This document shows, piece after piece, positions 1 through 20,688 of a DNA stretch of 64,000 nucleotides (positions within the stretch are counted from its first letter, which is position 1; every line of letters begins with the position of its first letter). This DNA comes from Nitrospirota bacterium. GTDB lineage: Bacteria; Nitrospirota; JACRHL01. The DNA lies in NCBI GenBank assembly GCA_016212085.1, contig JACRHL010000003.1, positions 62,001-126,000 on the forward strand, given 5' to 3'. The notes beneath the pieces are model-generated. The model was not told where the DNA came from, searched no databases, and saw only the letters and a program-made list of their open reading frames with translations. The position numbers and the translations under genes are program-made.

Positions 1-146
1 TCCTGGGTGACGAGGAGGAGCGCCCATTCCCCCGACGCCTCCTTGCCGAGGTAGAAGTCCAGGGGGTGGGATTCGTCGACGCGCTGGAAAGCCGCTCCTT
101 CGGGATGTGTCGGCATCTCCCGCCACCGGGCCTCAAATGCCATCAT
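1..146 (-). CDS. PD-(D/E)XK motif protein, N-terminal part (DUF4420-like)
   Basis: The first 48 codons of a minus-strand gene that runs off the left edge. The start codon at 146 overlaps the 3' end of the Z1 gene by 14 bases, so it is translationally coupled. The N-terminus contains FQRVDESHPLDFYLG followed by a hydrophobic strand, a pattern I associate with the DUF4420 'PD-(D/E)XK motif protein' family that follows Z1 genes in MORC/Z1 restriction-like operons. The nuclease core itself is not in the window, so catalytic residues cannot be checked. Role inferred: DNA-cleaving component of the operon. A second in-frame ATG lies at 143. Confidence 0.6.
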   Translation of the reverse strand, partial: MMAFEARWREMPTHPEGAAFQRVDESHPLDFYLGKEASGEWALLLVTQ

Positions 147-2829
147 CTTCCGCCTCCGGTTCGTCATCAACCTCCATGTCGAACATGTTCCGGAAGGCGA
201 CCAGATTGATGTCGTACCGGACGCGCCTCGCCACGCTGGTGTCGTCGAAGCGGGGGAAGCTGAGCCCGAGCGCTACCAGCGGCTGCCCGCCCGTATCCAC
301 ACGGTTCCCTTCCTCGGTCGGGGCGATGAGGTGGATCAGCAGAAGCGGGCGCTCCCTGTGCCTGCGGTACTCACTGTCCGGAATGCTCTTGCCGCCGCTG
401 GCGACCCGGTATTCCTCCGCTATGCGGTGAACGTCCTCGGTCCGCAGGCCTTCCCGCTCGATCCCGCGAGAACCCACGCGCCTGCTTCGGCCAGACACGA
501 GGATGGACCTGGTGGCCGCATTGACCGTCACCTTCCGCCTCTGCAGTCGGCAGCGTACCCCGGCGAACTCCGTCTCCTCCTCCTTGCCGCTGGGCAGGAG
601 GACATCCCAGGACGCGAGGCACGGCTCGTCCGTATTCTCCAGGAAGGCGGCGAGAAAATCCTGCTGGAACACGAAATCCAGCGGGTGGCTGAGGAACCGC
701 CGCAGCATCGAGGCAACGGAGGTCTTCGGGACACCGTGCCATATCGTGTTTCCCCACGGCGACGTCTCGTGCGGGATGCCGGCGGTGGCGAGTCCGTCGA
801 GGAATTCCGCGGCGGCCTTGGCGTTCGCGAGAATGGTAGCGACATCCGACCGCAGCTGCGGTGTCTCCAGTCCCTCGCCGCTCACCGAGATCACCCGTTC
901 GATTTCCGTGGCCATGCGCATCTTGTTCCTTGCGGTGACCAGCAGGGAGTCGGGATGCGACCGTACCTTCAGGCCGAAGTCCTTCGGCGTGAGGTCGAAG
1001 GCCCGCATCCGGCGGATCTCATCCCTCAGTTCGTCTGTTGCGTTGGCGATGTGCGCATACCAGTGGACCGCCTCGTCGGTGAGCCAGACCCGGCAGAGGT
1101 CGCCGTACCCGTCGCGGTAGCCGAACCAGCGCCCCATCTGCAGGAGGGTGTCGTACATCTGGGTGTTGCGGAAGAAGTAGCTGACACAAAGGCCCTCCAG
1201 CGTGAGACCGCGCGAGAGGCTGTTTCCGCCCACGGCCACCACCCGAAGCCCGGAATGGCGGTGCGCCGCGAAATCGAGGCTGGCGGTCCCGGTCCGCTGG
1301 TTGACAGCCTTCACGACTACGGGGAGTGCCGCGTCGACGAGCGCGGACTGGATCGCATGCCAGTCGGGGCCTGCATCGGCAAACTCCCGCCCCCAGGTCT
1401 CCTGCAGCAGCAGGATATTCCGATTACGCATGGCTTGGTCCACGGGGAGGCGGCTGTAGTTGCGGATATCCTGCTGCATCTGCCGGACTTCCTGGTCCAG
1501 CAGCTCGGCCACCTGATCCTGCACGTTGGTGAACCGACTCACGTTCACGAGCATCGAGCGATGGCTCGGTCCCTCTCCGCGAAGATCCCGGACCGCATTG
1601 GCCAAGACGAACGTCCTCAGGGCCTCGTAGAGGCTGCACGGCAACTCGTCCACCACGTACCCGGAGCGATGGCTGGCCGGGAAGTGCGACTCGGCGTCAT
1701 CGATCTCGCGCAGGCAGTCCAGCCGCGGGTCGTCGCCGAAAACCTCCCGGGGACCGACATAGTTGGTGGGTGGCTCGAGCGCGTAAATGAAGTCCCTCGG
1801 AAACAGGTCATTTCCGCGCATCTCGTCCTCGGTGTCCGGATCGATGAAGATGTTCGCGAACGGCGTGGCCGTGAAGCCCACGTAGCTTGTCCTGGTGAAG
1901 AGCCGGAGCAGGGCCCGGACACGCTCATTGATCGCCGTGGGATCCCGCGTGTTCGGGTTCGTGTTCACGGATGCGTTGTCCGCCTCGTCGTCGATCAGCA
2001 GCATCGGCGTGTCGATGACCCCGCTGTGCCCGGCGTTGTACGATCGGAGCCAGTTCTCAAGGTTTTCGAGGATTCGCTTGTTCTTCTTCACGACCAGGAG
2101 GATCGGCTCGGCCATATCGCGGATCCGCAGGTTGAGCTGGTTGACCAAGTTGGTGTTGAAGTCCCTCGTCCGCGACGTGAACACCACCGCCATCCGGTCC
2201 CGATCGATTTCGCCCACCCCGACCTCGCTCGTCCTGCGTTCACGTGCCAGCCATCCCGAGCTGTCCAGACCGACGAACCCCGCATCCAGGCGCTCCTGCG
2301 TCTGCCTGCGGAGGTTCTCCATGGTTCCGGTGAGCAGGATAACAAGCCGGTATCCGGCGTCGGCCACCTTGCACGACAGGGCGGTATAGGTTGCTGTCTT
2401 GCCCGACTGGACCTCTCCCATCACAAGTCCCCGTCGCTGCCACTTCCCGTCCGCTTCCGGATTGCCGAGAAGGTTCAGGATATCATCGGTCACCTGGTCC
2501 ATCCGGGCGACCACCCGTGGCGGCCAGCCCTGCCGCTTCAGGTATTTGTCGAAACGCTCCCAGTAGTAGGGATCGATCTCGGGCTTCCTACCCGGAAGCC
2601 ACGGCTGGTATTGCTCGACGATGGCCGTGCCCGTATCCATGTCGATCTGAAGGCGTGCATGGATCCGCCGCAGGACATTCGCGAACTCACCGTCGTCGAC
2701 GGCGTAAGTCGGGATCCCGCGAAGCGAATCGGCCAAGGTCTGAACTTCGACCTCCGTCGGCACCGCTCCATCACGCGCCAGCGTGGCGACAATGACGTCT
2801 TCGAGAAGGATTGCCTCCCTAGTCGGCAT
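133..2829 (-). CDS. Z1 domain protein (helicase-like P-loop NTPase of a MORC/Z1 defence operon)
   Basis: An 898-residue protein with a Walker A motif GEVQSGKT (about residues 138-145), Walker B LLIDDEAD (about 277), a helicase motif III-like GFTATPFAN (about 318) and the Z1 signature GGNSLSRGLTLEG followed by LLQMGRWFGYR (about 530-565). These identify the Z1 superfamily II helicase-like family, which occurs in operons with MORC-type GHKL ATPases and nucleases and is thought to act in restriction of foreign DNA (family knowledge). The gene overlaps the upstream ATPase gene by 11 bases and the downstream nuclease gene by 14, making a tight operon. No cytosine methylase is present upstream, although many relatives have one. 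Confidence 0.85.
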   Translation of the reverse strand: MPTREAILLEDVIVATLARDGAVPTEVEVQTLADSLRGIPTYAVDDGEFANVLRRIHARLQIDMDTGTAIVEQYQPWLPGRKPEIDPYYWERFDKYLKRQGWPPRVVARMDQVTDDILNLLGNPEADGKWQRRGLVMGEVQSGKTATYTALSCKVADAGYRLVILLTGTMENLRRQTQERLDAGFVGLDSSGWLARERRTSEVGVGEIDRDRMAVVFTSRTRDFNTNLVNQLNLRIRDMAEPILLVVKKNKRILENLENWLRSYNAGHSGVIDTPMLLIDDEADNASVNTNPNTRDPTAINERVRALLRLFTRTSYVGFTATPFANIFIDPDTEDEMRGNDLFPRDFIYALEPPTNYVGPREVFGDDPRLDCLREIDDAESHFPASHRSGYVVDELPCSLYEALRTFVLANAVRDLRGEGPSHRSMLVNVSRFTNVQDQVAELLDQEVRQMQQDIRNYSRLPVDQAMRNRNILLLQETWGREFADAGPDWHAIQSALVDAALPVVVKAVNQRTGTASLDFAAHRHSGLRVVAVGGNSLSRGLTLEGLCVSYFFRNTQMYDTLLQMGRWFGYRDGYGDLCRVWLTDEAVHWYAHIANATDELRDEIRRMRAFDLTPKDFGLKVRSHPDSLLVTARNKMRMATEIERVISVSGEGLETPQLRSDVATILANAKAAAEFLDGLATAGIPHETSPWGNTIWHGVPKTSVASMLRRFLSHPLDFVFQQDFLAAFLENTDEPCLASWDVLLPSGKEEETEFAGVRCRLQRRKVTVNAATRSILVSGRSRRVGSRGIEREGLRTEDVHRIAEEYRVASGGKSIPDSEYRRHRERPLLLIHLIAPTEEGNRVDTGGQPLVALGLSFPRFDDTSVARRVRYDINLVAFRNMFDMEVDDEPEAEDDGI

Positions 2830-4303
2830 CTTGGATCTCCTTCACAATCTCGCCCGTGATCTCCGGATACGAGCAGAACGGTTCGACCAGGTGCAGGTTT
2901 GCGAGCAGGGAATCCCTTGCTCCCGCGACGGACCCGGCCGCGTCGAGCATCTGCAGGGCGAGATCCCGCAATGAATCCCGTTCGCACCGTTCCGTCGCGC
3001 GGGGCCGGTCGGAGGCGATATCAGCATAAAGGGCGTCCGCCGGGTAGGTGGACTCGATCGTTTCGAGAAGGCCTCGGAGGAGCTGACGCTGGTCATCGTC
3101 GAGGGCCCCGTCCAGCATGGCCACCGCCGGATGTTCCCTGTTGACGCGGTACGAGATCCCATCCCTTCCCTGGATCCGGTTCCAGGCGTGGATGATCCCG
3201 TCACGCCGCGTGTTTCTCCCGCGGAAGGTGTAGGTCTGGCGAGATCTCTCGGCGATGCGTTCGACAGTCCTGCCCAGATTGCGCCGCACAATCTCGGGGG
3301 GGTGGGCTGCCGACTTCTTTATGTCGAGTGTCCAGAGATGATCGAGCGCATTCGGGATGTCCACCCTGACCCGTGCCAGCTTGGTCAGCTCCTCGGCACG
3401 CGCAAGCCGGAACCAGGTTCCGCGAATGATGAGCCTCCGGTTCCGATAGACATAGAATCCCTGGTTCCGCCGCAGCCCCTCCTCGCCGCCTGCGAGCTTA
3501 AGTTCATCACGGGACAGCTTGCTGATATGCGGAAGGATATACGGCTGGACACGGATCTCGCTGCCTTCCACCTCGAAGACGTCCTCGTACAGCGGCTGCG
3601 TGGCCTTGTGCAACGAAAGGAAGGGATCAAGGTGGAGGACCGGATTGTCGTTGATCTCCATGCCCAGCCGGCCAATCCCCGGCTCGCCGGAAAGGTAGCG
3701 GTGGAATACGAGGGCAAGGTGGTCCCGGACGCGATCCATCTTTTCCCCCAGCGCCTGTTCCACCGAAGCTTCGCCGGCCGCTAGGCGGTCGAGATCCTGC
3801 CACAGGACGACGGTCCCACGTCCCTGCTCCACGATCTCTCCGACGTGTGGCAGTGCCATGATCTCGGCCTCGGTGTCCGGAACCCAGAGTACCCAGGCCT
3901 CCCTTTGAGCCACGAGATCGAGATCCCAGCATCGAGCCGAGAGACGTCCGTCCTTTTGGCTGACGACGATGAGCCTGCGGCATTGCGACAGGGAAGCCGT
4001 TTTCAGCCCGAGGCCGAAACGGCCAAGATCATGGGGCGACCGCACCTCAAGGGGGCTCCGGCCACCGTGGCGCATCGCCTCGGTGAGTTCGTCCGGTCCC
4101 ATGCCCTCGCCGTTGTCGATGATCGCGACGTAAGGGTCATCGAAGGGACGGAACTGGACCCTGACCAACGTGGCGCCCGCCGAGATGCTGTTGTCGATGA
4201 GATCGGCCACCGCGGCTTCGAGTGAATACCCTACGGCGCGCATGGACTCGATGAAGGCGGGGGCATAGGGCGTCAATGCGAGTTCGGCCACTACGAGCCC
4301 CAC
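2819..4303 (-). CDS. MORC-like GHKL ATPase
   Basis: A 494-residue protein with the three GHKL ATP-binding boxes near the N-terminus: N-box ADLIDNSISAGAT (about 33-45), G1 IIDNGEGMG (about 60-68) and G2 RFGLGLKTAS (about 94-103). This is the MutL/Hsp90/MORC ATPase fold; the operon with Z1 and a PD-(D/E)XK protein places it in the prokaryotic MORC group linked to restriction systems (family knowledge). It presumably changes shape on ATP binding to control the Z1 motor and nuclease (inference). A GTG start at 4303 is used; there is no strong ribosome site. It is the first gene of the operon; the upstream 180 bases hold only the 3' end of a phage gene, with no methylase. Confidence 0.8.
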   Translation of the reverse strand: MGLVVAELALTPYAPAFIESMRAVGYSLEAAVADLIDNSISAGATLVRVQFRPFDDPYVAIIDNGEGMGPDELTEAMRHGGRSPLEVRSPHDLGRFGLGLKTASLSQCRRLIVVSQKDGRLSARCWDLDLVAQREAWVLWVPDTEAEIMALPHVGEIVEQGRGTVVLWQDLDRLAAGEASVEQALGEKMDRVRDHLALVFHRYLSGEPGIGRLGMEINDNPVLHLDPFLSLHKATQPLYEDVFEVEGSEIRVQPYILPHISKLSRDELKLAGGEEGLRRNQGFYVYRNRRLIIRGTWFRLARAEELTKLARVRVDIPNALDHLWTLDIKKSAAHPPEIVRRNLGRTVERIAERSRQTYTFRGRNTRRDGIIHAWNRIQGRDGISYRVNREHPAVAMLDGALDDDQRQLLRGLLETIESTYPADALYADIASDRPRATERCERDSLRDLALQMLDAAGSVAGARDSLLANLHLVEPFCSYPEITGEIVKEIQDAD

Positions 4304-6016: not shown

Positions 6017-7720
6017 CTATCCTCCCTCCGCGCTCCAGTTGACCGTGCCGCCCACGTCGGCGCCGCCCGTGTCGAACACGTGGGCCGTGAAGCCGGTGGT
6101 GGTCACGTTGTTCGCCCCGGCGATGCGGGCCGTGCTGCCGATGGCCGTGACCCGCACCTCGGGCTTCCTGTGGAAGGGGCGGGCGAAGGTGATGGCCGTG
6201 CCGCCCGCCGCCACCGCCACGTCCGTCGCCTTCTCCGTCCGCTCCCGCACGTCCACCGTGGGCAGGAAGCCGGTGATCTTGGCCCGGCCCCGGGCCGTGT
6301 CCAGCACCAAGCGGTGTTTTACAAACCGCGCCGTCACCTGCCCCACCGCCCAGGGCGTAAAGCCGTCGTAGGCCCCGGCCTCCAGCCGGTGGTCGATCTC
6401 CAGCTTCGGGTCGGCCACGCCGGTGGCCACCCCGGTCCCCAGGGCGCTTGCCACCTCGCCCCACACCCGCACCGTGTCGTCGAAGCCGCCGTCCATCTCC
6501 GGCGCCTCGTAGATCGCCTGGGCGACGGGGTACGGGACGAAGGTCTCGAACAGCTCGGCGTTGGTGTGGGCGGCGGCCCCGAGGGTGGAGTCCGGCACGA
6601 GGACGCCGGTCCAGTGCGCCAGGAACCCGGTCTTCATTCCCGGCCAGGCGGGTGCCTGCTGGGCCTGGAAGATCACGTCCAGGGCGTTGACCACCGTGAG
6701 GTCCTTGGCGGCGGCGCCCGTCGAGTAGTTGCCCGACGTGTCCCGCGCCTTGACCAGGAAGGTCCAGCCCCCCGGCGGCACCGCGGCGCTGGTGATCTGG
6801 GTGCCGCGGGTGACCTCCGTCAGGGGCGTGCCGTCCGCCCAGGTGGCCGACCCCAAGGGCCCGTAGCGAATCTCGTAGCCGGCCAGGTCCACGTCCGCCA
6901 CCTGCCCCCACTGGAACACCACCACGTCGCCGTTCTGGAAGGCGCCGAAGCCGGTGACATCCGCCGGCGGATCGGTCTTGCCGATGACCGTGTGGCCGGT
7001 GACGGTGGCCCAGGCGCTCCGTACCCCCAGGGTGTTGTAGGCGCGGATCCGCACGTCGTAGGCGGTGCCGTCCTTCACCGGGGACAGGTACGCCTCCGTG
7101 TCCCCGGCGTCGGGCGCCGCGGCGGGCAGCCAGGTGCCGGAGGCGCTCTCCTTCACCTGCACCTCGTAGCCGTCCAGGTAGGCGTCGGCGGCCGGGACCC
7201 AAGCGGCGTGGATGCGGCTGACCACCGTGCCGTCCCCGGCCACGTACAGGTGGGAAGCCCCGGAGGCCAGGACGAGGCCCGTGGGGGACTGCACGGTGAA
7301 CGGGTCCGGCAGGCTCGTGTCCGGGGGCGCCGGCAGCCCGGTGGGCACGGTCCGGTCGTAGGCGGTGGGGTCGTGCTCCCGCAGCTGCACCGCCACGTTG
7401 CCGTCCGGGTGCAGCTCCAGGTGGGTGACCCGGAACGGCTTGGCCGTCCACCCCGGCCCCGGGTGCGTGACCGCCACCACGTCCCCCACCGCCACCTGGA
7501 GCGCGTCCAGGGTGGCCAGGAAGGCGCAGACCAGCCCCTCCCGGCTCTTCTTGAGGATCACCTCGGCGTGGTACGCCGCCCGGTAGGGGTCCGTCTCCAG
7601 GTCGTAGGCGACGTCCTGCTCCAGGCGCAGGTTGCCGTCCGCCGCGTACCACGCCGCGCTCTCCTGCACCGCCTCGCTCGTCGCTCCTCGCGATCTAACC
7701 GGTACCGGGGCAGGGGCCAC
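6017..7720 (-). CDS. Tail-tip (gpJ-like) protein, C-terminal fragment with fibronectin-III repeats
   Basis: The C-terminal part of a lambda J-like host-specificity protein. After a segment ending in domain-III-like strands (about residues 20-130) come fibronectin type III-like repeats (about 130-330, with YEVQVKE, YDVRIRAYN and YEIRYGP strands), then a fibre-binding C-terminus. Full J proteins exceed 1000 residues; here only about 560 remain. The N-terminus begins at the junction with a plus-strand operon near 7700-7720, so the start codon is probably accidental and the gene a remnant. The next gene, a fibre, starts one base after its stop. Domain order and neighbours support the call; expression is doubtful. 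Confidence 0.7.
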   Translation of the reverse strand: MAPAPVPVRSRGATSEAVQESAAWYAADGNLRLEQDVAYDLETDPYRAAYHAEVILKKSREGLVCAFLATLDALQVAVGDVVAVTHPGPGWTAKPFRVTHLELHPDGNVAVQLREHDPTAYDRTVPTGLPAPPDTSLPDPFTVQSPTGLVLASGASHLYVAGDGTVVSRIHAAWVPAADAYLDGYEVQVKESASGTWLPAAAPDAGDTEAYLSPVKDGTAYDVRIRAYNTLGVRSAWATVTGHTVIGKTDPPADVTGFGAFQNGDVVVFQWGQVADVDLAGYEIRYGPLGSATWADGTPLTEVTRGTQITSAAVPPGGWTFLVKARDTSGNYSTGAAAKDLTVVNALDVIFQAQQAPAWPGMKTGFLAHWTGVLVPDSTLGAAAHTNAELFETFVPYPVAQAIYEAPEMDGGFDDTVRVWGEVASALGTGVATGVADPKLEIDHRLEAGAYDGFTPWAVGQVTARFVKHRLVLDTARGRAKITGFLPTVDVRERTEKATDVAVAAGGTAITFARPFHRKPEVRVTAIGSTARIAGANNVTTTGFTAHVFDTGGADVGGTVNWSAEGG

Positions 7721-7724
7721 TTCT

Positions 7725-7763
7725 ATGATGGCATATCATGGCGAGGACACGGCACACTTGTGC
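7725..7763 (+). promoter_or_regulatory. Two small palindromes upstream of the NurA-HerA operon
   Basis: ATGAT-GGCAT-ATCAT at 7725-7739 and GCACA-CT-TGTGC at 7752-7763 lie between the J-fragment junction and the nurA-like start at 7796. The second is a perfect 5-bp-arm palindrome and could be an operator. I cannot assign a regulator, and no convincing -35/-10 pair is seen. Confidence 0.25.
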
Positions 7764-7795
7764 ATATTTGAACCACCGACCAGCTAGGAGGGGGA

Positions 7796-8938
7796 ATGAT
7801 CGACCCGGCAAGCCAGGCCCAACTGAAGGAGGCCATCGCGGACTGTATAGGCACCGATCAAGGGGTGCTCGATACACTGCGGGAAGAGATCCGTCCTTTG
7901 AGGAGCGCCACGCGCCGCATTCAGCCGCGCGCCACGACGTCGATATCACTGGTCGGAACCGATGGTGGCAACAATCAGCTCCACTTTGACCCTTTCCTGA
8001 TCCAGCTGGTCCGGGTGGTGGACAGCAGCAACAACGAGTACTGCCTGGAAGCTGTCTCGCCCACAACGCCCATCCAAAAGCTCAACGAGCGTCAGCTCGC
8101 TGCAGATGGGTCGGCTCGCACGGCACTCGGCGAAATGATGGCCTTCCTGGGTGTGGAAAGCCTGCCAGCGCTCTCCCACATGATTCGACCAACCGACAAG
8201 GGAAAGCCTGTTTCCCCAAGCTGGGTGCAGGTGTACCGTGAACTGGTCGAGTGGGCCATCCTGTTCGCCATCCTCAAGAAGGACTTTGGCACGGATACCT
8301 TGATCGTCTGCGACGGCCTGCTGCGTAGTAAGGTCTTCGCCAAGGACCTTTTCCAGCGCCTGCTCCAAGGCATGAAGGACCGCATCGACGCACAATGGAA
8401 CGGGAGCCGCCGCCGGGTGTATCTGGCCGGCGTGGCCAAACACAGCAAGGTGCTTTCACGGTATCGCCTGGCCATGGCCCTGGAAGGCGTGCTTCAGACC
8501 GATTACCCAGCCTACGTGGAGGTGCCGCGCGAGGTGGAGGAACAGGCCTATGTCTGGTCGGAATTCGCGCGAGGCGACGACCGCGCCGGCGAAGGCGGAG
8601 AGATCAACAAGTTCGTCGGGGGCAAGATGTTCCTGGTGAAGTTCGGCTCACACCGCCGTGACCCCGTGTGGCCGGTGGACATCTTTGTTCCGCAGGTCGG
8701 GGAGTCTCAGACCATCCTTGGCTCGATGCTCGCCGACGCGATCAATGGCTTCCCGGTGCCACACTACCCACGTTGCCTACAGAAAGCACATGAAAACGCG
8801 GCCCTGGTCGATTTCGATTTCGACATCCTGCAGGACTTCATCTACGAAGGGGTGCGATCGAGCCTCGGTGGCGACGCCGGGACATTGGACGCGTTTCAGC
8901 TTCAAGATGCCGACCCAGCACAACGTAGATACGGATAA
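7796..8938 (+). CDS. nurA: NurA-domain nuclease of a NurA-HerA-methyltransferase operon
   Basis: A 380-residue protein with acidic motifs of the NurA fold: SLVGTDGGNN (about residues 52-61), LIVCDGLLRSK (about 168-178) and a late WPVDIFVP (about 294-301). NurA is an RNase H-fold 5'-3' nuclease that works with the ring-shaped HerA ATPase, in archaea for end resection and in bacteria increasingly in anti-phage systems (family knowledge). The gene has a strong AGGAGGGGG ribosome site ahead of the ATG and is followed 11 bases later by the HerA gene. It is the first gene on the plus strand after a disrupted tail-tip gene. Direct metal-binding assignment needs alignment. Confidence 0.75.
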   Translation: MIDPASQAQLKEAIADCIGTDQGVLDTLREEIRPLRSATRRIQPRATTSISLVGTDGGNNQLHFDPFLIQLVRVVDSSNNEYCLEAVSPTTPIQKLNERQLAADGSARTALGEMMAFLGVESLPALSHMIRPTDKGKPVSPSWVQVYRELVEWAILFAILKKDFGTDTLIVCDGLLRSKVFAKDLFQRLLQGMKDRIDAQWNGSRRRVYLAGVAKHSKVLSRYRLAMALEGVLQTDYPAYVEVPREVEEQAYVWSEFARGDDRAGEGGEINKFVGGKMFLVKFGSHRRDPVWPVDIFVPQVGESQTILGSMLADAINGFPVPHYPRCLQKAHENAALVDFDFDILQDFIYEGVRSSLGGDAGTLDAFQLQDADPAQRRYG

Positions 8939-8949
8939 GGGAGAACAAC

Positions 8950-11064
8950 ATGGCAGAAATCCAACTCTTTCCCAGAGATCAGGTCGTCGGCATCTTCCGT
9001 GGATTCCAGCAAGGGGGCATGGAGTTTCACGCAGACCTGGTGTTGCCGTACCGGAACGAGTTCCAGAACATCCCGATGCACGGGCAGTTCCTCCTCGTGC
9101 AATTGGAGACGCCCGATGAAGCCGTGTTGGGACGTATCGCGTCTTTCTCTTCTGAGGGCAAACTGTCGTTTGGTTCCGGCGAGGAGTTCAATATACGAGC
9201 TGTCAAGGAAGAACGACCAATACCAGAAGATCTGCGAGAGCAATACCTCAAGTACCGAGTGAATATCCGCATGCTGGGTGTTTTGCGCAAGAACGGGAAG
9301 GATCTGACTTTCGTGCCATCGCATCGCCGGCTACCCCATGTAGGCAGCAAGGTTGCCTTCCCTGCCAGCGATGTGTTGCGGGAAATCGCTGGACATAATA
9401 TCGATGGAGCCCCCATAGGACACTTGGCGTTCGGCGAGTACATCTACGCCGCAGGTAATAAATCATTCGAGTCACAGGAATGGATGCAGGTGGTCGAACC
9501 GGAGGTGCTGGTTCGCTTCCCAATCGAGTCACTGGTATCTCGCCGCAGCTTTATCTTTGCCCGTGCGGGCTTCGGCAAATCCAATCTCAACAAGTTGCTC
9601 TTCTCGAAGCTCTACGAGACAACGCCTTTCGTCACAAAGCGCGCCGGCAAGCAGGTACCCGTAGGCGCGGTGATCTTCGACCCAGATGGCGAGTATTTCT
9701 GGCCTGACGACAAGGGCCGCCCAGGCCTATGTGACGTCCCCGCGCTGGAGGACAAGGTCGTTGTTTTCACCGACAGGAAAAATCCGAGTCCCTTCTACCA
9801 ATCGTTCGTGGCTGGCGGCATCAAACTTGATATTCGCCGTCTACGCCCAGGGGACGTGATCTCCATCGCGCTCGGAGCCGAACGTCAGGAGCAGCAGAAC
9901 GTTAGGAAGCTACGAGGACTCCCGCAAGACCGGTGGGAGTCGTTGGTCAATCTGATCGACACCAACGGCAACACCACGCCGCTTGACGATGTCTGCCGAC
10001 TGCTCGACCTTGATCCTCAGCGCCAGGAGGCCGAGGCTCTGGCCGCCAGAGGCAACATGACGGCGATCGTGAAGATGCTGCATGACAAGAGCAGCCAGCT
10101 CATGGACATGCTGGTTCGCGCTCTCTCCGAGGGGAAGCTGTGCGTCATCGACGTCTCGCAGATGCGCGGCGGCCAGTCGCTGGTGCTCTCGGGCCTGATA
10201 CTTCGCCGCATTTTCGATCGAAACCAGCAGGAATTCACCGCAGCCGATCCAAAGACGATCCCGACGATCGCGGTCGTCGAAGAGGCGCAGTCGGTGCTGA
10301 ACGAAAATGCACCAGCTGCCGAGCCCTACGTCGCCTGGGTCAAGGAAGGTCGTAAGTACGATCTCGGCGCGCTGCTGATCACCCAGCAGCCAGGCAGCAT
10401 TCCTGTCGAGATCCTCAGCCAAGGCGACAACTGGTTCATCTTCCACCTGTTGTCGGCGGCGGATCTCACGTCCCTGAAACGAGCCAACGCCCATTTCAGT
10501 GATGATTTGTTGAGCTCGCTTCTCAACGAGCCCATCCCGGGCCAGGGTGTGTTTTGGAGCTCAGTGGGAGGCAAGCCCTATCCAGTCAGCCTCCGGGCCC
10601 TGTCGTTCGAGACGATGTACTCGATGCGGGACCACGACTACACCAAACCCGCCGGTCACACCTACGCCCAAATGCTGCGCAGCACCTTCTCCGGGATGAG
10701 GCAGATCGCGACAACAGCCCGCGTTCCTGGGGCCGATGGCACAGGCACTTTGTTTCCTGCAGAGGCGGAAGCCGAAGAAGGTGAGCCGGTGGACGTCATG
10801 GCAAACATCGAGCAGCGGGCAATCGAAGCCTTGCGCGGAGATAACGACATCCGGCAGAAACTAGAATCTGCAAATGGGATGCCTTGGTACGGTGTCCAAC
10901 AATTTCTAATTGATCACTTGCCTGAACACCTTGAAGACCGCAGGCAATTTGCCTACAACCTCGTCTCCAAGGCCATGAATGCCATTTTTGGATCACAGTC
11001 CCAGGTGTGGGAGACATTCAAGAATCCGACTACGGGGAAAACTTGGATAAGGGCCAGCAAGTGA
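8950..11064 (+). CDS. herA: HerA-like hexameric ATPase/translocase (HAS-barrel plus DUF87)
   Basis: A 704-residue protein. The N-terminal ~110 residues form the beta-rich HAS-barrel expected of HerA. Walker A ARAGFGKSN is at about 203-211, a DPDGEYFW strand at about 243, and Walker B with catalytic glutamate IAVVEEAQ at about 438-445, followed by QQPGSIP. HerA rings pump DNA into the NurA nuclease (family knowledge). The gene sits between nurA and a DNA methyltransferase; its stop overlaps the methyltransferase start as TGATG. A C-terminal extension from about 600 (acidic linker, then a helical domain) could recruit the third component (inference). Confidence 0.85.
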   Translation: MAEIQLFPRDQVVGIFRGFQQGGMEFHADLVLPYRNEFQNIPMHGQFLLVQLETPDEAVLGRIASFSSEGKLSFGSGEEFNIRAVKEERPIPEDLREQYLKYRVNIRMLGVLRKNGKDLTFVPSHRRLPHVGSKVAFPASDVLREIAGHNIDGAPIGHLAFGEYIYAAGNKSFESQEWMQVVEPEVLVRFPIESLVSRRSFIFARAGFGKSNLNKLLFSKLYETTPFVTKRAGKQVPVGAVIFDPDGEYFWPDDKGRPGLCDVPALEDKVVVFTDRKNPSPFYQSFVAGGIKLDIRRLRPGDVISIALGAERQEQQNVRKLRGLPQDRWESLVNLIDTNGNTTPLDDVCRLLDLDPQRQEAEALAARGNMTAIVKMLHDKSSQLMDMLVRALSEGKLCVIDVSQMRGGQSLVLSGLILRRIFDRNQQEFTAADPKTIPTIAVVEEAQSVLNENAPAAEPYVAWVKEGRKYDLGALLITQQPGSIPVEILSQGDNWFIFHLLSAADLTSLKRANAHFSDDLLSSLLNEPIPGQGVFWSSVGGKPYPVSLRALSFETMYSMRDHDYTKPAGHTYAQMLRSTFSGMRQIATTARVPGADGTGTLFPAEAEAEEGEPVDVMANIEQRAIEALRGDNDIRQKLESANGMPWYGVQQFLIDHLPEHLEDRRQFAYNLVSKAMNAIFGSQSQVWETFKNPTTGKTWIRASK

Positions 11065-12167
11065 TGGACATGTTGCGCCCGGAGAATGTTGCCCTAAATG
11101 GGATTTGCCCTTACTTCACGATGTTCCCTCTCGATTTTCCCCTCAGCATTCTGAAGCGACGAGCACGGGAAGGTGACGTTGTGCTTGATCCTTTCTGCGG
11201 CCGGGGTACCACCAATTTCGCCGCACGGCTTGTCGGTCTCCGGTCCTTGGGTGTGGATTCCAGTCCGGTTGCCGCAGCCATTACAGCCTCCAAGCTTGTG
11301 ACGGCCACCGTTGATGACATCCTCGGCGAAGCACGCAGGATTCTGACCGAACGTGAAGCGCGCCACATCCCGACCAGCGAGTTTTGGCAATGGGCGTTTC
11401 ACCCGATTGTATTGGATGCGCTGTGTCGATTCCGGGAGGCGTTCCTGGAGGACTGCACGACGGACGCCCGCATCGCACTCCGTGGCATCGTCCTTGGTGC
11501 GCTGCATGGCCCGAAGCAGAAGACATTCCCGAGCTACTTCTCCAACCAATGCCCCCGCACCTACGCCCCCAAACCTGCCTATGCGATACGTTTCTGGCAG
11601 GGGCGTGGGCTTGTGCCTGAACCAATTGATGTCTTGACCGTGATCGAACGGCGGGCGAAACGTTACTACGGGACGTCGTCAGACATCACGGGGGCTGTAC
11701 GATTGGCGGATAGCCGGGGGGCCGAGGCACTCCAGCCTGAAACACTGGATACCCACTTCGATTGGGTGATCACCTCGCCCCCGTACTACGGCATGCGAAC
11801 CTACATCCCCGACCAGTGGCTCCGCAACTGGTTCGTAGGCGGCCCTGACGCTGTGGACTACTCCAGTCGCGATCAGGTTGTTCATTCAAGCCCCGAGGAC
11901 TTCGCGACCGATCTGCGGCAGGTATGGCGCAACGCGGAAAACGTGTGCGCAGATGGCGCCAAGATGGTCATCCGGTTCGGTGGCATCACGGATAGGCGCG
12001 CCGATCCGCTGGACCTCATCAAGAGCTCCCTCGCCGACAGCGGCTGGCGAATTACGACCATCAAGGAGGCTGGTTCAGCCACGGAAGGCAAGAGACAGGC
12101 GGATGCCTTCCTCCGCACCAAGTCCAAGCCGATGGTCGAGTACGACGTTTGGGCAACCAGACGGTGA
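11064..12167 (+). CDS. DNA methyltransferase (SPPY type) third in the NurA-HerA operon
   Basis: A 367-residue protein with AdoMet motif I DPFCGRGTT (about 41-49) and catalytic motif IV TSPPYYGM (about 236-243). The SPPY form is usual for N4-cytosine methyltransferases, though some N6-adenine enzymes have it. The motif I before IV order with about 190 residues between is compatible with a recognition domain in the middle. The start at 11064 overlaps the HerA stop. Its presence suggests a restriction-like self/non-self scheme in which methylation protects the host and NurA-HerA attacks unmodified DNA (inference). The C-terminus ends in EYDVWATRR, complete. Confidence 0.8.
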   Translation: MDMLRPENVALNGICPYFTMFPLDFPLSILKRRAREGDVVLDPFCGRGTTNFAARLVGLRSLGVDSSPVAAAITASKLVTATVDDILGEARRILTEREARHIPTSEFWQWAFHPIVLDALCRFREAFLEDCTTDARIALRGIVLGALHGPKQKTFPSYFSNQCPRTYAPKPAYAIRFWQGRGLVPEPIDVLTVIERRAKRYYGTSSDITGAVRLADSRGAEALQPETLDTHFDWVITSPPYYGMRTYIPDQWLRNWFVGGPDAVDYSSRDQVVHSSPEDFATDLRQVWRNAENVCADGAKMVIRFGGITDRRADPLDLIKSSLADSGWRITTIKEAGSATEGKRQADAFLRTKSKPMVEYDVWATRR

Positions 12168-12393
12168 CCAACAAGGCCAGCAATTTATGAGGAGGACAGT
12201 CGGTCGATGTGGACACTGGTTCGAAAACCTCCAGGGAGTCCTGGGCGGCGAACCGGTGGATGCGGTCCCGCTCCTTCAAGTTCAGGGGCCGGAAGTGGAT
12301 CGTGGTGCCCCACTCGGGCACCTCGATGCTGCCGAGACCCGCCGCCAGCCGCTCGCGGAAGTGGTTCTTGGCTTTTTCGAGAATCTCGCTCAT
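12061..12393 (-). pseudogene. Tail assembly chaperone (gpG-like), 3' end lost at the cargo junction
   Basis: Starts with ATG at 12393, three bases after the tail-tube stop, as gpG follows gpV in lambda-like phages. About 55 residues read as phage (FRERLAAGLGSIEVPEWG, then LKERDRIHRFAAQDSL), a style seen in tail chaperones. Beyond about 12,205 the frame continues only by chance, antisense to the 3' end of the methyltransferase, so the gene is truncated. The missing part, the usual frameshifted gpGT extension, and the whole tape measure gene are absent. The true junction base cannot be fixed without a related intact phage. Confidence 0.65.
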
Positions 12394-12395
12394 GG

Positions 12396-13397: not shown

Positions 13398-13449
13398 TTT
13401 TTGCTACCTTCTATCTCGACCACCAACTTCTTAAATGGAGCGAACATCT

Positions 13450-14388
13450 ATGCTTCAGTCCTTCAAGCCAGATTTCTGGGCGTTGGCCCGCGAGCAGAAG
13501 GGGTATTACTCCTGGGCGGACCGTAATCGCTGGCGACTTGCGAAAAAGATGCGTAGGCTCGTGGACTGCGGTCACCTGTGCTGCCGTGATCTCGAATCGG
13601 GAGAAATAGTCGATGCGTTGTTCAATGATGGATTGGGAACCCATCCTTTGATCGACTGCGTCTTTGAAGGGCTAGCCCGCGCTGAATCCCGGTTTTCTCT
13701 TAGATTCGTGCCTCAACGAAGTCACGAAGAGCGTCTAACAGGAAATCTTGTCTCCGAGATCGAAGCTGCGCTCTTCCTTATCCGCCCGGTATTTTCGGAA
13801 TTGTCTCAGGCGCGATATGGCAAGGATCTCGACGTCGATTTCCTGTATTACGATTTGTCGAGAGGTGGAATGTTGGAAAAGCAGACCGGCGCTGATCTGG
13901 CCTTCATCTTGGCGATCGACTTGCCAGACCTTCCTTATCTGGTTCGATATGCGTCCTTTCAGGCAAAAAAATTCAACGGATCCACCAGCATACAGAAGGA
14001 TCAGTTTGATACGCTCATTGCTCGGTTCGGGGATGCTGCGGCTTACCTTTTCTATGACATGAACCAAACCACCCTGCTCCCGCCGATGGTAATCCCCGCT
14101 TCAGAATTTGAAAGCAAGGCGAAGGAGAAGGACCACACTCAAAGCTTGAGCGTGTCGGAAAAACACGTTGAGAGTGGTCTTCCTCTTTCGCTATGGCTAC
14201 TCACAAGTATGGCAAGAGGAGTGGGTGGAAAATCGGCCCGTGATTTCCAGGATGCAATGAACCATTTTACGGGTGCTAATGATCGCCAATGCGACCAAGA
14301 CGGGCGCCTTGCTATTCTAAGCATTGGGAAAAAACTTCAGACTCGGATTCACCCCGAAAGCGGGCTCGATATATCGCTACCCGAGTAA
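13450..14388 (+). CDS. Putative PD-(D/E)XK (D-QxK) nuclease, single-gene cargo
   Basis: A ~312-residue protein on the plus strand between connector and tail-terminator genes, visibly more AT-rich than the phage genes around it. Around residues 145-180 it has EKQTGADLAFILAIDLP, then YASFQAKKF. A GaD strand followed by a Q-x-K strand is the pattern of QxK-type PD-(D/E)XK nucleases found in several defence effectors. The rest is helical and unfamiliar. The ATG at 13450 has a GGAG site; an upstream ATG at 13435 is the alternative. No partner gene is present, so it may be a stand-alone defence gene or a phage moron (inference). Confidence 0.5.
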   Translation: MLQSFKPDFWALAREQKGYYSWADRNRWRLAKKMRRLVDCGHLCCRDLESGEIVDALFNDGLGTHPLIDCVFEGLARAESRFSLRFVPQRSHEERLTGNLVSEIEAALFLIRPVFSELSQARYGKDLDVDFLYYDLSRGGMLEKQTGADLAFILAIDLPDLPYLVRYASFQAKKFNGSTSIQKDQFDTLIARFGDAAAYLFYDMNQTTLLPPMVIPASEFESKAKEKDHTQSLSVSEKHVESGLPLSLWLLTSMARGVGGKSARDFQDAMNHFTGANDRQCDQDGRLAILSIGKKLQTRIHPESGLDISLPE

Positions 14389-19466: not shown

Positions 19467-19563
19467 TGGGTACGATTTGTGCTGAAATACAGAATGTTTA
19501 ATCGGTCTACGATTACTATCGCCCGTGGCAACTCCAGGCCACTTGATCAATGGAAGTCCCACC

Positions 19564-20688
19564 ATGAAGTTCACCCACTCCGCCTTTCGTGAAGATGACG
19601 ACGCTGCCTTCATTCACATTGTCAGTGGGCACATCGCTTCAGATGCACCTAAAAAAAGGGGGGTTGTGCCTTCAGACTACGTGAATTTGGCGCGGCAAGT
19701 GTGGTCAACATGCGAGGTGGATGCGGTATATGCCATAAAAATTCTTTGTGACCCACTGGTTCAACCGGAGTATCAAAGTGAGTCCGAAGAGGACATGTTT
19801 TGTGTATTGGTTGCCCGTGTTGACCATAGCGGTAATTTGATTGATGCTCCTGTGGATTATCAGCCTCCTAACATACCTGGCGTCCGGCTTAGCCACATTG
19901 TCGCCGGATCACCGCATAGCGGGCAGCGACAAGACCCGACAAGACCCGCCAATTATGTGTTAGCTTACTTTGATGTTTTGGGATTTGAGTCCCTGCTAAA
20001 CAAAGTTGGATTGGATGCCGTTTATCAGCTCTACGTTCAACTACTTGAGACCGCGTTAGCCCCTCATTCCGAAGAACGCCCTTGGAGCAAGGCATTGAGT
20101 ATCGTTCAAGGAGACATTGCTCCTGCGCTTATGTGGTTGCCAATTGAAACGGCTTATTCCAGTGATAGCTTGCTGCTTTGGATTCCGTATCACCCGCAGT
20201 ACATCGAGGAGTTCTTCCGCCGTTGCTCTTTGGTATTTTGCCAAGCCCTTCAGATGGGATTGCCACTCCGAGGCGCCATTACAGTTGGCAGGGCTGTTTT
20301 GAACAAGGAGCGCAATATTTTTATTGGACACCCTTTAGTGGAAGGAGCGCGCTTAGAGAGCAAGCTGAATTGGATTGGCGTCGCACTAGGAGCTTCCGTA
20401 AAATCGGATGAGATTAGAATGCCGATCCCACCGGTGTCCGTCCTTTTCTATGCCCCGACGTTTAAGAAAGGCTCGGACGATCTCTTTTCAGGGCTCGTTC
20501 TCGATTGGCCACGCGTCTGGCGAGAAACCCGTACTGAGTCCGCTATCGACTATCTCCAAACACTCTGCACACCCGATCTCCCTGACTCCCTGAAACAACG
20601 CTACATCGACACCGAAACGTTTTATAAACACTCCGACGAAAATCAGGGATGGGACCTGCCAGATGGAGCAACAAGAATCAAGGTCTAG
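19564..20688 (+). CDS. Nucleotide-cyclase-like protein, single-gene cargo
   Basis: A 374-residue protein, markedly AT-richer than the phage genes. From about residue 130 it shows a class III cyclase-like pattern: VLAYFDVLGFESLL (metal-binding Asp position), later YSSDSLLLW (second acidic site) and RGAITVGRAVLNKERNIFIG leading to LVEGARLESKLNWIGV. This FDVLGF/SDS family resembles cyclases but lacks proof of catalysis. The N-terminal 125 residues are unfamiliar. It lies between TerL and gpW, opposite in strand. Pycsar systems pair such cyclases with an effector, but none is adjacent. The ATG at 19564 has a GGAAG site; a GTG at 19525 is possible. Confidence 0.5.
   Translation: MKFTHSAFREDDDAAFIHIVSGHIASDAPKKRGVVPSDYVNLARQVWSTCEVDAVYAIKILCDPLVQPEYQSESEEDMFCVLVARVDHSGNLIDAPVDYQPPNIPGVRLSHIVAGSPHSGQRQDPTRPANYVLAYFDVLGFESLLNKVGLDAVYQLYVQLLETALAPHSEERPWSKALSIVQGDIAPALMWLPIETAYSSDSLLLWIPYHPQYIEEFFRRCSLVFCQALQMGLPLRGAITVGRAVLNKERNIFIGHPLVEGARLESKLNWIGVALGASVKSDEIRMPIPPVSVLFYAPTFKKGSDDLFSGLVLDWPRVWRETRTESAIDYLQTLCTPDLPDSLKQRYIDTETFYKHSDENQGWDLPDGATRIKV

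Follow-up and report, generated by a model that had tools for sequence, protein, structure and literature searches.

The window analysed here, a 64,000-nucleotide stretch of a Nitrospirota genome, carries three intact reading frames on the forward strand that are predicted to encode a NurA/TdpB-like nuclease (7796-8938, 380 aa), a HerA/TdpA-like DNA translocase of the HerA/FtsK ATPase type (8950-11064, 704 aa), and an SPPY DNA methyltransferase of the N6-adenine/N4-cytosine type (11064-12167, 367 aa). The ribosome-binding site AGGAGGGGG lies directly 5' of the nuclease ATG in the upstream alignment. The nuclease and ATPase genes are separated by 11 bases (8939-8949), and the ATPase and methylase genes overlap in a TGATG junction (TGA at 11062-11064, ATG at 11064-11066). 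The initial annotation of this locus had described the same layout, and its coordinates, strand, gap and overlap all agree with the window sequence. The G+C content of the cassette is 59%, as compared to 67-72% for the prophage around it and ~70% for the chromosome.

To the left of the trio lies a truncated tail fibre J gene of the host prophage (6017-7720, reverse strand), in which residues 26-336 match residues 683-1055 of the 1565 in J. To the right, the list of open reading frames contains a remnant frame downstream of the major tail protein (12168-12395, reverse strand), which is probably a tail assembly gene of the prophage; DNA similarity to other trio loci ends just before it, at 12165. 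Between J and the major tail protein, the trio takes the position expected for tape-measure genes; the prophage yielded no att-like repeat. The earlier description of the operon as lying inside a prophage was right as to context, but the tail operon is broken, with its J gene cut short. Nor is the trio a set of prophage genes, since the nuclease is absent from a phage collection of 50,697 records and almost absent from viral contigs, with one match in IMG/VR. The prophage is only a carrier for the trio. The position between phage structural genes would fit a moron carried by the phage to its own benefit, through superinfection exclusion or anti-restriction, but we consider this very improbable given the phage and viral searches, the coincidence of the insertion with tail-gene loss, and the residence of other copies in bacterial defence islands, as described below.

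Other genes of this region were also noted. Two genes of low G+C (50-51%), at 13435-14388 and 19525-20688, stand between phage structural genes on the opposite strand; they had no family match and are probably further cargo. Next to the cassette, and bordering the prophage tail genes on their left, is an MZA-type defence system, with MzaB and MzaC in the window (133-4303) and MzaD, MzaE, a Vsr nuclease, and a cytosine methylase in the sequence to the left of the window (L040, 15042-19464).

The window nuclease matched no model in Pfam, NCBIfam or PADLOC, and comparison to the Pfam NurA family PF09376 gave no match at E < 0.01. An AlphaFold model built from 54 relatives (pLDDT 87) showed an RNase H-like fold, and its best Foldseek match was TdpB in the cryo-EM TdpAB complex (E 2e-11, TM 0.65) at ~20% identity, followed by far weaker matches to Argonaute and Thermotoga TM1739, both of which are RNase H-like. 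The sequence profile alone also reaches TdpB (E 6.7e-4). Residues D56, E152, D173, Y324 and H332 are invariant across the alignment of 54 sequences; we take these to be the acidic catalytic residues of NurA and its C-terminal Tyr/His pair. Because of the fold and profile matches to TdpB and these invariant residues, the name NurA proposed in the initial annotation is correct, though it was not obvious: the protein is a NurA by fold, and a NurA function is likely, despite its position outside the Pfam family. Profile comparison of the nuclease alignment to Pfam-positive NurA proteins of a second lineage, described below, shows no similarity. Identity as a type II restriction endonuclease was rejected, as the nuclease is NurA/TdpB-like and no restriction enzyme model matches it.

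The assignments of the other two genes as HerA and SPPY methyltransferase were likewise upheld. The ATPase carries the HerA domain PF01935 (DUF87, E 9e-18), with an intact Walker A motif (GFGKSN) and a Walker B-like motif (VVEEAQ) whose residues are invariant in the alignment. Among solved structures, the ATPase profile matches TdpA best (E 1.5e-29), in an alignment that takes in the N-terminal part and Walker A region as well as the C-terminal half; TdpA ranks ahead of archaeal HerA (E 9e-18) and other solved HerA-type proteins. The methylase contains the N6/N4-class domain PF01555 (E 1e-14) with motif I (DPFCGRGTT) and motif IV (SPPY), and the core motif residues (DPxCGRGTT, SPPY) are invariant in 46 relatives. 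Its AlphaFold model (pLDDT 89) is a Rossmann methyltransferase, and Foldseek returned generic Rossmann methyltransferases alone, so the fold tells neither the target nor the modified base. The middle of the protein, the expected site of target recognition, shows good conservation and not the hypervariability of typical specificity modules.

To place these genes in a wider context, the nuclease alignment was scanned against ~85,000 species genomes, yielding 114 relatives. The best 80 of these 114 span ~15 phyla, including Pseudomonadota, Acidobacteria, Chloroflexi, Verrucomicrobia, planctomycetes, Firmicutes, Cyanobacteria, Bacteroidetes, Myxococcota and Actinobacteria, with identities of up to 97% between nucleases of different phyla, and the ATPase directly follows the nuclease in nearly all loci. 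The trio is conserved as a unit and has spread widely by horizontal transfer. In a gene-neighbourhood analysis of the kind proposed in the initial annotation, covering 84 loci and the window, the nuclease (75 loci), the ATPase (75) and the methylase (61) were the sole recurring families, with the next family found in 6. The methylase is mostly located 3' of the pair on the same strand; it is convergent in ~15 loci, and likewise in two further Nitrospirota genomes. The same trio is present in dozens of genomes, so the arrangement is not one of chance; its occurrence only here is excluded, as is an unrelated truncated cassette as the source of the methylase. DNA similarity of 83-89% to the closest full-length relatives runs from ~7699, which is 97 bases 5' of the nuclease, to the methylase end at 12165; within these bounds the cassette and its upstream region (7699-7795, forward strand) therefore make up a transferred three-gene unit. 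The nuclease was not found in the plasmid collection, nor was the nuclease-ATPase pair in E. coli genomes.

Two Nitrospirota genomes carry an extended form of the cassette, with genes for a ParA-like TPR ATPase (PADLOC candidate PDC-M28B), an HTH/MqsA-like protein and a small protein directly upstream of NurA (L035, 12055-14858; L036, 13493-16332). This longer cassette was dropped as a candidate for the real unit because its genes recur in just 3 loci, and a single contig accounts for two of these.

The loci that carry the trio are defence islands. With the trio itself excluded, 111 flanking proteins from 19 loci matched 150 PADLOC models at E <= 1e-20, including type III restriction-modification, BREX PglX, DISARM DrmD, Zorya ZorD and Dpd, while 120 control proteins encoded elsewhere in these genomes, at a distance from the loci, matched 3; as PADLOC models are redundant, these figures give a clear contrast and not a count of systems.

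Sequence distances indicate that the methylase belongs to the system and is co-inherited with the pair. Distances of nuclease and ATPase correlate at 0.94, and those of ATPase and methylase at 0.61 over all loci. The latter rises to r 0.90 without the four loci with replaced methylases (L060, L061, L071 and L093), a descriptive value, as these loci were left out after inspection. In L060, L061 and L071 the NurA-HerA pair is 76-89% identical to that of the window and the methylase just 44-46%, plainly a replacement of the methylase. Exactly one methylase match at E <= 1e-20 was found in 25 of 27 carrier genomes, although the match in one of these (G414) is a distant homologue at ~30% identity; in the remaining two (G410 and G411) a methylase of this family was not found. 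Among 396 Nitrospirota genomes, a strong match occurs in just three, the window genome, G278 and G308, and it lies beside NurA-HerA in all three. Several NurA-HerA pairs have no adjoining methylase, and in L052, L054 and L066 a methylase of a second subgroup sits further upstream on the same contig.

These data bear on a reading in which the pair is a DNA-end-resection repair complex with the methylase as a passenger, a role suggested by canonical archaeal NurA-HerA, which resects DNA ends according to two reports (PMC5715905, PMC4351679). The archaeal and Deinococcus NurA-HerA repair complexes combine the same two enzyme types as the window, but they have a chromosomal repair role and no methylase, and the window NurA lies outside PF09376. 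The trio has a patchy, recently transferred distribution, with proteins 97% identical in different phyla; besides the trio no gene, for repair or otherwise, recurs at these loci; the methylase appears co-inherited; and among solved proteins the pair is closest to TdpA and TdpB, not to repair HerA or NurA. On this evidence, we regard a repair function as quite improbable.

The methylase subfamily also occurs apart from NurA-HerA. In a scan of 199 Acidobacteria genomes from the methylase side, the subfamily was present in three: G423, which is the seed trio; G556, in which the stronger copy accompanies an SF1 helicase protein and the weaker copy HerA-NurA; and G539, in which the methylase stands among unrelated genes. 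The lack of exclusivity follows from the latter two contexts. From the other side, NurA-HerA pairs of the window's clade are nearly always accompanied by the subfamily.

Methylases of the second subgroup are usually convergent with a gene for a 1,415-aa SF1 helicase (AAA_11/AAA_12) protein (L052, 1034-5281; L071, L145, L146, L147, L151, L152 and L158). This methylase-helicase pair is also found on rhizobial plasmids with no NurA-HerA nearby, and it sometimes lies in a NurA-HerA island with one methylase for both. By these arrangements, the pair is apparently another methylase-plus-effector system. A lone methylase 85% identical to that of the window adjoins an IS200/IS605 element on the Allochromatium tepidum plasmid pAt1 (L150, 8977-10083), which carries no relative of the nuclease; this gene is possibly an anti-restriction gene or a remnant.

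Operons further removed from the window's also combine HerA, NurA and a related methylase, but in other gene orders. In L039, L041 and L042 the order is HerA-NurA-methylase, and the nuclease is Pfam-positive for PF09376 (E 8e-10 to 9e-25); TdpA is again the best solved relative of the L041 ATPase. The order methylase-HerA-NurA is found on the Deferribacter megaplasmid pDF308, where the NurA label is the RefSeq name, and in L160, where it reflects a sub-threshold Pfam match; the nucleases of L160 and L153 fall below the PF09376 cut-off. Two motifs, SNQ..T.A and TSPPY...Y..DQW.R.W..GG, are common to the window methylase and those of L038, L039, L041 and L042. In L037 (8489-12885) a divergent NurA-HerA pair has a DruA (Druantia) gene immediately 5' of it; a methylase was not found next to the pair. 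In loci with no adjacent methylase, the gene after NurA-HerA encodes a DUF3223 protein (PADLOC HamC; L053, 3549-4295; L055, 7073-7819; L066, 13295-14041).

The closest solved relatives of the window pair, TdpA and TdpB (compared through PDB 8wet, 8wfd and 8y1k), form the HerA-like ATPase and NurA-like nuclease restriction pair of the Tdp system. TdpC is the DNA-modifying partner enzyme of TdpA and TdpB. In TdpAB, phosphorothioation reportedly inhibits translocation and cutting, and the system is said to come from Thermus antranikianii. Its description as a system of TdpA, TdpB and TdpC is reportedly due to An et al. in 2025 (Nat Chem Biol, doi 10.1038/s41589-024-01832-w). The window differs in that a DNA methyltransferase replaces the phosphorothioate (sulfur-modifying) enzyme TdpC, and in the size of the ATPase (704 aa as compared to 586 aa for TdpA). 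The operon has no TdpC; the sole third gene that recurs across the loci is the methyltransferase.

A second precedent is the co-transcribed tdtA operon of ICETh1 in Thermus thermophilus HB27 (TTC1877-TTC1880), which encodes Tth111II, a NurA-like protein (377 aa), the HerA/FtsK protein TdtA (568 aa), and a PF01555 methylase (410 aa), with the last two genes overlapping; DNA donation needs Tth111II, the NurA-like protein and TdtA, and the TdtA homologues listed include a T. antranikianii protein (PMC5365140). The window has the same order of NurA, HerA-type ATPase and PF01555 methylase, and its last two genes likewise overlap. This operon and the TdtA homologue in T. antranikianii favor a DNA-export, transjugation-like module, a role proposed for TdtA itself: the ATPase would pump chromosomal DNA out to other cells and the nuclease would trim it, with the methylase in an accessory part. 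However, ICETh1 has the type IIG enzyme Tth111II upstream and is an excising element, whereas the upstream gene in the window is a phage J fragment. In the 84 loci and the window, the neighbours of the trio include no recurrent type IIG enzyme, integrase, excision-element gene or further ICE gene, and these loci are defence islands; we thus consider export rather unlikely.

Other known systems share single features with the trio. HerA-Sir2 and HerA-DUF4297 also join a HerA ring to an effector enzyme, but the effector domains are different, there is no methylase, and the window HerA is only distantly related. In DndFGH and the HerA/FtsK capture systems a HerA/FtsK translocase restricts invading DNA, as proposed here, but these have a large multi-domain DndH or are multi-gene systems, and NurA is not mentioned in the respective papers (PMC10853773, PMC12839542). 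The trio was not found described as a defence system in the open-access literature; subscription papers and preprints fall mostly outside that scope, so a named description may exist. The view in the initial annotation that no named system has this composition thus stands for the open-access literature, but the trio is less new than it implied, as the Tdp pair and the ICETh1 gene order precede it. It is apparently a widespread, unnamed variant of which the parts, and the Tdp and tdtA precedents, are known.

Taken together, we consider it likely that the three genes form a mobile DNA-defence cassette acting in the manner of restriction-modification. The conserved trio, its defence-island setting and its TdpA/TdpB relatives give most support to a restriction-like system in which the methylase marks self, and a restriction engine gated by a host DNA mark, as in TdpAB, would be the parsimonious reading. 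In the proposed mechanism, the methyltransferase would mark the host chromosome at recognition sites, and the HerA/TdpA-like ring would dock on a dimer of the NurA/TdpB-like nuclease, load on DNA, and pump it into the nuclease. Methylated self-DNA would resist loading, translocation or cutting, while unmethylated incoming DNA would be degraded by NurA-HerA. By analogy with Tdp, we infer complex formation, DNA pumping, and inhibition by the host mark, and methylation itself is the presumed self-mark. Points against the preferred reading are the two carrier genomes without a methylase, the methylases that are not adjacent to the pair, the conserved methylase middle, and the donation role of the ICETh1 operon, the closest one of this gene order to have been studied by experiment.

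A broader proposal, which we put forward tentatively as somewhat less probable than even, is that the trio represents an unnamed and widespread kind of restriction-modification: a dedicated SPPY subfamily would guard host DNA from a translocating HerA-NurA shredder, and related methylases would also serve a second, unrelated effector, the 1,415-aa SF1 helicase protein beside them, such that one mark may license two independent restriction machines. PADLOC 2.0 contains no model matching the nuclease and would therefore miss the system as a unit. If methylation guards the trio, then the same restriction engine would be gated by chemically different marks, making the question of how a HerA ring senses the mark directly testable. 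If this reading is true, archaeal-type NurA-HerA resection, phosphorothioate-guarded TdpAB, and the Thermus donation operon would be versions of one motor-nuclease family with an exchangeable partner enzyme.
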